This document shows, piece after piece, positions 6,494 to 7,980 of a stretch of 48,756 nt of DNA. The DNA comes from an uncultured Alphaproteobacteria bacterium. GTDB lineage: Bacteria > Pseudomonadota > Alphaproteobacteria > RF32 > CAG-239. Position numbers and translations under genes: made by a program. The notes beneath the pieces are model-generated. The model was not told the DNA's origin, searched no databases, and worked only from the letters and a program-made list of their open reading frames with translations. Location of the stretch: assembly GCA_944392865.1 (NCBI GenBank), contig CALXYD010000007.1:1-48756 (forward strand), in the 5' to 3' direction. Position 1 is the first letter of the stretch, and the number at the start of each line of letters is the position of its first letter.

Positions 6494-6556
6494 GCGGCTT
6501 TATGCAATATTTGCCGGCAAATCGCGAAAAATCTGTGATTTAAAGCGGCGGACGGG

Positions 6557-6584
6557 TTGCCTTTATGGCAAACAGGATTATTAT
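6557..6584 (+). promoter_or_regulatory. Predicted promoter of the DUF805 gene
   Basis: TTGCCT (6557-6562) and TATTAT (6579-6584) are 16 bases apart, 33 bases before the start codon. Confidence 0.4.
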
Positions 6585-6616
6585 GTATTTGATTTTTAAT
6601 TTTTTGAGAGGGAAAG

Positions 6617-7735
6617 ATGGTTAGCAAAAAGACTTCATCCGAAGCGAGCGCCAAAACCGCAGGCAAGGCCGAGGAAACGGCGAAAAAAGCGGCGGCGAAA
6701 GCGGTTGCCGGCAGTGCGAAAACGACGACAAAGGCCGGAAAAAACGCAAAACCGGCGGCGAAGGCGGCAACGGCAAAGACAGATAACGCCAAAACGGCGG
6801 CAAAGAAAGAGGCTAAGGCCGTCCCGGCGACAGCGAATCGCGATATTGCCGCGGAAGTTTTGAATATCAAATCGGCAAACGAAGAGAAGAAAACGGCGAA
6901 AAAATCCGGCGGAAGGGTTCAGAGCGCCGTTGCGGGCAATGCCGTTTCCGAAGGCGAACCCGGAAAGAAGGCCGCCAACAACAGCAAACGCGCCGAAGTG
7001 TTGGAAAACGCCAAAATCGCCGAGGCGAAAAAGTTTTTGGAGATGAAAGAAACCGCTCCGGCCTGCGACTCGGCCTGTGCCAAAAAAGAATGTACCGGTT
7101 GCGGCGGCGGGGCTTTTTGCTCCTGGATTAAGGCTTATAAAAATATTTTCAACTTCAAAGGGCGGACTTCCCGGTTTGAATTTTGGAGCTTTATGCTCAT
7201 CAACCTTTTTGCGGTTGTCCTGCTTACGTTCGGCGTCGGATTTTTATCCGCTTTTATGCCGACTGTTTCGCTGGTGCTGGCCGTTATCCTGTATGTTGCG
7301 GAGATTTTGGTTTATCTTGCGATTATTACGCGGCGTTTGCACGATGCCGGCTATACCGCGTGGAAAGGATTTTTCCGCCCGTGCCTGTTTAGCTGGATCG
7401 GCGGCATGGCCTTTGCGATTGGCGCTGCTTATCTGTTTAACGCGATGGTTGAAAGCGGCTCCGGCGACCTTACCGGTATTAAATGGACGGGCGGCGCGGC
7501 GATTGCCCTGTTTATCGCTTATCTTTATTACTGCATAAAGATTTTCATTGCGGCGGGCTTTTTTGAAGAAGAAAACGGCACCAACGCATACGGCGCAATG
7601 TCCGCTTATTGCGACCACGCCCACAAGCAGCGCGCGCTCAGATACGCGGCTATTTATCTGTTGCTGGTATTGCTCAGCAATGTGATTCAGCTGGCTTCTT
7701 ATATGTTAGGAATGTTGGGCGGCAGCGTCTATTAG
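6617..7735 (+). CDS. DUF805 membrane protein with histone-H1-like N-terminal tail
   Basis: A 372-residue protein in three parts. Residues 1-145 are rich in Lys and Ala with scattered Thr/Ser, like eukaryotic histone H1 tails and bacterial AlgP/HU-tail sequences, and should be unstructured, basic and cytoplasmic. A five-cysteine cluster (C150, C154, C159, C162, C168) links it to a DUF805 domain from about 172, recognised by FNFKGRTSRFEFW and TRRLHDAGY and by several membrane segments. The role of DUF805 is unknown. The tail could touch DNA, RNA or the membrane surface (inference). The GAGAGGGAAAG ribosome site is strong. A transcription unit of its own, ending at the hairpin at 7953. Confidence 0.8.
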   Translation: MVSKKTSSEASAKTAGKAEETAKKAAAKAVAGSAKTTTKAGKNAKPAAKAATAKTDNAKTAAKKEAKAVPATANRDIAAEVLNIKSANEEKKTAKKSGGRVQSAVAGNAVSEGEPGKKAANNSKRAEVLENAKIAEAKKFLEMKETAPACDSACAKKECTGCGGGAFCSWIKAYKNIFNFKGRTSRFEFWSFMLINLFAVVLLTFGVGFLSAFMPTVSLVLAVILYVAEILVYLAIITRRLHDAGYTAWKGFFRPCLFSWIGGMAFAIGAAYLFNAMVESGSGDLTGIKWTGGAAIALFIAYLYYCIKIFIAAGFFEEENGTNAYGAMSAYCDHAHKQRALRYAAIYLLLVLLSNVIQLASYMLGMLGGSVY

Positions 7736-7952
7736 CGGCGTGACGGCAAGGCGCGCAGAGCGTGTTGCGTTGTGCGCGCGAGGCTTTGAGACTGTTTCAG
7801 CCGGGCGTGAGTATTTGAGTCGCGACCGGTGCGGATTGGACGGTTAAGAGGCTGAGCCGCTCAAGAAACGACGGACGGGCTTGTGAAATTTTATACGCAA
7901 GGCGTCTTATGCGGCTTGTGTTGCATAACGCAGTTCCGGTTGATAAATAAAG

Positions 7953-7980
7953 GGGGAGGTTTTATGCCTCCCCTCTTTTC
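7953..7980 (+). terminator. Terminator downstream of the DUF805 gene
   Basis: GGGGAGG (7953-7959) pairs with CCTCCCC (7967-7973) around a TTTTATG loop and is followed by TCTTTTCTT. It lies about 220 bases after the stop codon, so the transcript would have a long 3' tail. Confidence 0.65.

Follow-up and report, generated by a model that had tools for sequence, protein, structure and literature searches.

We take YhaH of Escherichia coli to be a member of the DUF805 family (PF05656). Among the matches listed in the literature on DUF805 and YhaH, we found no molecular function for the domain. In the excerpted text of PMC12548472, an E. coli yhaH mutant loses its sensitivity to two phages, and complementation restores it. 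Two further proteins serve as comparisons for a lysine-rich tail. AlgP, in the excerpts of its report, has a whole-protein net charge of +55, carries C-terminal KPAA repeats in a DNA-binding, Lys-rich and disordered C-terminal region, and associates with polyphosphate granules (PMC9239181). TubY, likewise in excerpt, is a MerR-like regulator with a lysine-rich tail that binds both DNA and lipid and folds into an amphipathic helix with lipids (PMC7762940).

The window analysed here is a 48,756-nucleotide stretch of DNA from an uncultured alphaproteobacterium, whose draft genome (1.58 Mb, 87 contigs) contains five DUF805 matches. One of its genes encodes a tail followed by a DUF805 membrane domain (Table 1), starting with an ATG a short distance 3' of GAGAGGGAAAG. 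The Pfam match scores 45 bits against a gathering score of 25.7. The 172 aa ahead of 'AYKN' contain 32 K, 43 A, 3 R and 18 D/E, with a net charge of +17, and five cysteines counted on the protein sequence (C150, C154, C159, C162 and C168) all fall within the last 40 residues of the tail. The original prediction, of about 145 Lys/Ala-rich residues and a five-Cys cluster ahead of a DUF805 domain, described this layout correctly, its 145 residues fitting the part of the tail that precedes the cysteines. The protein also has the GRxxRxEFW-like entry and the RRxHD of DUF805, as named from our own alignments, together with a multi-helix domain in which R183, R186, E188, W190, R239, R240, H242 and D243 are invariant across 18 orthologues. 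An Rfam and tRNA search of the window found nothing, and an NCBIfam search with three orthologues found nothing either. A terminator-like stem-loop at 7952-7974, readable on both strands, lies between the convergent DUF805 and nucleosidase-like genes.

Table 1. Features of the tailed DUF805 gene, in window positions
Feature	Positions	Strand	Evidence
Complete ORF of the tailed DUF805 membrane protein (372 aa)	6617..7735	+	ORF and Pfam; match in each of 18 genus genomes
N-terminal linker, aa 1-73, Lys-rich, Arg-free, predicted disordered	6617..6835	+	K 0.23, R 0.00, A 0.34; pLDDT <50 for aa 1-85
Conserved motif 1, aa 74-92 (NRDIAAEVLNIKSANEEKK)	6836..6892	+	Mean pairwise identity 0.53 (153 pairs), gap fraction 0.00
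Variable linker 2, aa 93-121	6893..6979	+	Mean pairwise identity 0.27
Conserved motif 2, aa 122-144 (core ENAKIAEAKKFLEMK)	6980..7048	+	Mean pairwise identity 0.51 (136/153 pairs)
Five-Cys cluster adjoining the membrane domain, aa 150-168	7064..7120	+	At least 2 Cys in 14/18 orthologues
Best-conserved stretch, aa 173-192 (AYKNIFNFKGRTSRFEFWSF), membrane entry	7133..7192	+	Mean pairwise identity 0.79
DUF805 domain (PF05656), aa 177-326	7145..7594	+	Pfam; long helices in model

The membrane part has a match in all 18 genomes of the genus, our own included. A profile of the tail gives one match in each of these 18 genomes and none in 108 others searched in the family; as it was itself built from 15 of the 18 sequences, the zero outside the genus is the informative half of this result. 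Outside the genus, the best match of the membrane domain reaches 52.5 bits, with 29% identity over residues 5-163 of 208. The orthologues are 303-381 aa long and their tails 96-181 aa, with 17-26% Lys and a net charge of +8 to +27 (n=18); starts were set by rule, at an ATG with M[VA]xK or else at the first ATG, except in L016, where MATRKT was chosen manually as the beginning of the protein. In each of the 17 relatives included in the comparison, the gene is adjoined by nucleosidase-like and lexA genes. Upstream, the genes for the His-phosphatase and rsmB are several kb off in two of these relatives (L070, L072) and lie outside the pieces at hand for two others (L067, L074). When the His-phosphatase neighbour was searched for in 49 family genomes, the matches outside the genus were too weak and too many to place the syntenic locus.

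Conservation within the tail is concentrated in its two motifs, which are better conserved, by mean pairwise identity among the 18 orthologues, than most of the membrane domain (0.35 after aa 192, against 0.53 and 0.51). The N-linker (0.35), linker 2 (0.27) and the Cys region (0.27) show lower values than the motifs, and the linkers vary in both length and sequence, with gap fractions of 0.25-0.29. K85 and N88 of motif 1 are invariant in all 18, while motif 2 is gapped out in L014 and poorly kept in L019. Every segment and pair that gave an estimate (six pairs, short segments) has a dN/dS below 1: 0-0.12 for the motifs, estimable in five of the six pairs, with 0-0.08 for motif 2, and, over five pairs, 0.24-0.53 for the N-linker, 0-0.79 for linker 2 and 0.11-0.43 for the membrane domain, all of these being rough figures from 20-69 codons per tail segment and from pairs some of which share members. 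Motif 1 of L008/L009 shows no change at all. In L006/L007, our protein's own closest pair, most segments are saturated, and identity is 60% in motif 1, 96% in motif 2 and 54% in the domain. The L015 and L016 proteins do not differ at all in the motifs or in linker 2, with a membrane domain that is 63% identical; given the low dS in motif 1 and linker 2, this identity may reflect recombination. Taken as sequence evidence, the pattern indicates that the tail is maintained by evolution and is not neutral filler.

The recurrence of a similar N-terminus in relatives shows the tail behaving as coding sequence, and it is unusual coding sequence for these genomes. Among 369 mechanically called ORFs of at least 100 aa from 449 kb of our own genome, a single one has a Lys-rich basic N-terminus (9 or more Lys, a net charge of at least +6 and no more than 13 residues that are hydrophobic or Cys, all in the first 60 aa), and it is the gene described here. 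Of 284 ORFs in 17 genus regions around the gene, 14 pass the same test and all 14 are orthologues, so that the pooled samples give 15 of 653 ORFs, every one the tailed DUF805 protein. The test is strict, as it fails 2 of the 18 orthologues (L019, L021) and passes 5 of 11 group-B proteins (a sister group, see below); 14 of the 17 regional orthologues were caught, that of L016 being missed in the scan owing to a mechanical start further upstream. We therefore rejected a genome-wide habit of Lys-rich N-termini. A tail common to other proteins of the genome was also rejected, given the one profile match per genome, as was a tandem-repeat expansion, with 0 tandem DNA arrays at 6500-7800. Lys-rich windows at any position occur in 6 of 409 ORFs and are N-terminal in our protein only. 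In a separate 330-aa ORF (L094, 1931-2923, plus strand), the middle part is rich in Lys, Ala and Gly and precedes a hydrophobic segment.

An AlphaFold2 model from nine sequences has a mean pLDDT of 57.9, with the tail mostly below 50. It predicts weak, low-confidence helices at 77-96 and 121-145, covering motifs 1 and 2, and long helices near aa 186-211, 215-243, 248-280, 286-319 and 334-371. Across the orthologues, mean K+R is 37.8 in the N-tail and 4.0 and 4.3 in loops 2-3 and 4-5, against 0.2, 0.6 and 0.1 on the opposite side, a distribution that favours an N-in, C-out topology in which the tail is probably cytosolic. The PDB holds no relative by sequence at E 1 and no fold match at E 0.001 (best E 1.0, with the weak model as query). 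When 35 motif sequences were compared with their own shuffles, not one exceeded 95% of them in amphipathicity, and on this ground the motifs were rejected as amphipathic membrane binders.

How far Lys-rich tails extend through the DUF805 family was followed in a tree of 85 domains, midpoint-rooted and with its bootstrap not settled, that leaves out nine ORFs without the GR motif; there a branch with support 100/99 has the 18 genus proteins (group A) and their sister paralogue group B together on one of its sides, and the placement of a very long row (L141) within the group is probably an error. Group-B tails are shorter and mostly Lys-rich, and 10 of the 11 count as tailed by the label rule (L028 does not). 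Two proteins from another genus of the same family (L046 and L047, genus g5) have Lys-rich N-tails on the opposite side of that branch, which suggests a second gain. To the eye, the C-terminal region of L046 and L047 is pilin-like, with no Pfam pilin match for L046; another DUF805 protein of the family (L057) has a C-terminal PilS pilin domain (PF08805, E 2.9e-8). At the syntenic place, contig G008:C39 (L069 / L042) carries three tandem DUF805 copies, of which only one has the long Lys-rich tail. The two others, with N-termini of about 28 aa, group with L015/L016 on the tree, so the tail can be lost once the gene has duplicated. Adjoining a group-B DUF805 gene, a 357-aa ORF (L005, 83-1156, plus strand) has GKPKSGANGSGRPKP-type repeats towards its C-terminus.

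A class-wide search found DUF805 in 81 of 240 genomes. Of 40 regions selected in other genomes of this class (mostly places with an open frame of about 200 aa or more, G270:C129 being at least one such place outside the set), 36 gave 44 DUF805 ORFs and four (L143, L146, L148, L151) had none by profile. No Lys-rich basic tail occurs among these 44; L164 has 21% Lys but is SHOCT-like, with a net charge of +2. The search for other tailed DUF805 proteins that the original prediction called for gave them throughout the genus, in most of group B and in L046/L047, and in 0 of the 44 ORFs from the selected regions. Other modules occupy the N-terminal position instead. By eye, seven ORFs (L128, L130, L131, L152, L154, L158 and L163) have a cold-shock-like domain there; of the 12 PDB rows for a profile of six of these domains, 9 are cold-shock proteins, two with E <0.01 (best 0.0016), although Pfam, run on four of the ORFs, gave at most a weak match to cold-shock (E 0.13). 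Three ORFs have a SHOCT-like piece, in the one checked by Pfam with E 6e-7. These arrangements suggest that DUF805 may be an anchor for exchangeable cytosolic modules, be it SHOCT, cold-shock-like or the Lys-rich arm.

What could such a protein do? Observed features are its anatomy, the way conservation varies along it and charges placed in keeping with an N-in topology, and the tail probably holds something at the membrane. Our preferred reading, to which we give a probability of about 0.5, is that of a genus-specific membrane-anchored scaffold made of an anchor, a Lys-rich arm and two docking motifs, of which we infer the binding steps and the partner. The DUF805 domain, with five predicted helices and a cytosolic N-terminus, would fix the protein in the inner membrane, and the tail of about 100-180 aa would be a flexible cytosolic arm. 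The Lys-rich, Arg-poor linkers would attract a polyanion weakly and in a salt-sensitive way, with nucleic acid the likeliest candidate and anionic lipid or polyphosphate possible, while motifs 1 and 2 would dock a specific protein partner. The net effect would be to keep this partner, and the polyanion that it acts on, at the membrane. The idea of a membrane tether in the original prediction thus keeps its general part, as a genuine, conserved and probably cytosolic basic extension on a membrane domain is most naturally read as a tether of some sort. The variant suggests a testable anchor-plus-module idea for DUF805, and its motifs are two conserved peptides directly usable as bait for the partner.

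The strongest competitor, which we still consider doubtful, is a tether in which the Lys-rich tail, through non-specific binding, keeps chromosomal DNA, RNA or ribosomes at the inner membrane and the motifs are simply part of the binding surface. Nucleic acid is a possible ligand of the tail, plausible from its composition, the analogy with AlgP and TubY and the cold-shock-like modules elsewhere: in being Lys-rich, Arg-poor and disordered, the tail is similar to the C-terminal region by which AlgP, as excerpted, binds DNA (PMC9239181), and the TubY excerpts describe a lysine-rich tail able to bind both DNA and membrane (PMC7762940). Seven ORFs of the class also place a cold-shock-like domain, a nucleic-acid-binding fold, at the same position. 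Cold-shock proteins bind RNA through aromatic residues, yet these residues look, by eye, largely lost in the DUF805-linked domains. The charge of the tail is moderate too, at +17 over 172 aa against the +55 excerpted for the whole of AlgP, and although our tail is low in pLDDT and the tails are Lys-rich across the genus, their net charge is only +8 to +27. KPAA tandem repeats are lacking in our tail (no DNA array, one KPAA by eye), and the conservation of the motifs favours specific docking over bulk charge.

Composition also bears on this tether, which had been proposed from a 'histone-H1-like' look. In the first linker, across regional GC contents of 31-51%, Lys stays at 0.20-0.32 and Arg at 0-0.03, against a K/R of 1.54 in the genome sample. 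The Ala content of the N-linker ranges from 0.07 to 0.34 and rises with GC (Spearman rho 0.82), and its Lys drops somewhat (rho -0.54, p 0.02), GC here being that of the 7-49 kb pieces at hand, from which whole genomes may differ. The Ala-rich tails are those of L006 and L007, the members highest in GC, so our own copy owes its histone-like, Ala-rich appearance partly to its high GC. What was called Lys/Ala-rich is really Lys-rich and Arg-poor, with a preference for Lys over Arg that persists, and the histone-H1 label, drawn from composition alone, is not supported as worded when Ala tracks GC, net charge is below that of AlgP and KPAA-type repeats are lacking. It is tempting to speculate, although we think it unlikely, that a lineage-specific integral membrane protein uses a lysine-rich disordered arm to link the inner membrane physically with nucleic acid (nucleoid, mRNA or ribosomes), with its two short motifs recruiting a specific partner, as a membrane-bound counterpart of AlgP/PhaF on a general DUF805 anchor that takes lineage-specific modules. 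Should nucleic acid prove to be the ligand, the protein would represent a type of membrane tether absent among the literature matches listed on lysine-rich membrane proteins.

It is improbable, in our view, that the tail binds no nucleic acid and engages anionic lipid head groups or polyphosphate, or only enforces the N-in topology. Charge alone would attract a membrane-adjacent, Lys-rich segment to anionic lipid, and AlgP, as excerpted, does associate with polyphosphate granules (PMC9239181), but the motifs are not amphipathic above their shuffles, which speaks against this reading. A few charges suffice as a topology signal, yet the tails run to 96-181 aa.

A metal or thiol sensor, with the membrane-adjacent Cys cluster as its active part and the tail as a spacer, is very unlikely. 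In its favour, 12 of the 18 orthologues have 3-5 Cys in the last 40 tail residues, and five Cys within 20 aa occur in 4 of 376 sampled ORFs, of which ours is one. Their spacing, however, is not fixed across orthologues, so the fixed-spacing pairs of a zinc-ribbon-like module are lacking, and the four orthologues with no Cys there (L018, L019, L022 and L023) still keep the Lys-rich tail and motif 1. The cluster is therefore best described, from the alignments, as a frequent accessory and not as core. Elsewhere, a large ORF that looks PPDK/PtsI-like by eye (L082, 12352-15045, minus strand; the same gene is cut in L001) has a Cys-rich end, SAECCCKKAC.

Finally, a functionless, neutral low-complexity expansion, which the original prediction had expected tailless relatives and variable insertions to reveal, is hardly credible: distant DUF805 proteins do lack such a tail, two G008 copies have short N-termini, the linkers vary and Ala follows GC, but all 18 genus orthologues keep the Lys-rich tail, in which Lys remains high and Arg almost absent across widely differing GC contents, there is no tandem DNA array, and the conservation of the motifs (dN/dS 0-0.12 where estimable) largely refutes it.

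Set beside known systems, the scaffold that we favour would be a lineage variant of an uncharacterised family: it shares with DUF805 a membrane domain above the curated cut-off and adds the long Lys-rich tail, the two motifs and an extra C-terminal helix after the Pfam match. With AlgP and PhaF it has in common a Lys-rich extension predicted to be disordered, but the tail here is N-terminal, lacks repeats, is less charged, and comes with conserved motifs and a membrane domain. TubY, as far as its excerpts go, offers the likeness of a lysine-rich tail, whereas our protein has a multi-helix membrane anchor and motifs that are not amphipathic above shuffles. The SHOCT-DUF805 and cold-shock-like-DUF805 proteins are similar in bearing an N-terminal module on DUF805; their modules are small and of a folded type, while the genus described here carries a disordered, Lys-rich arm.
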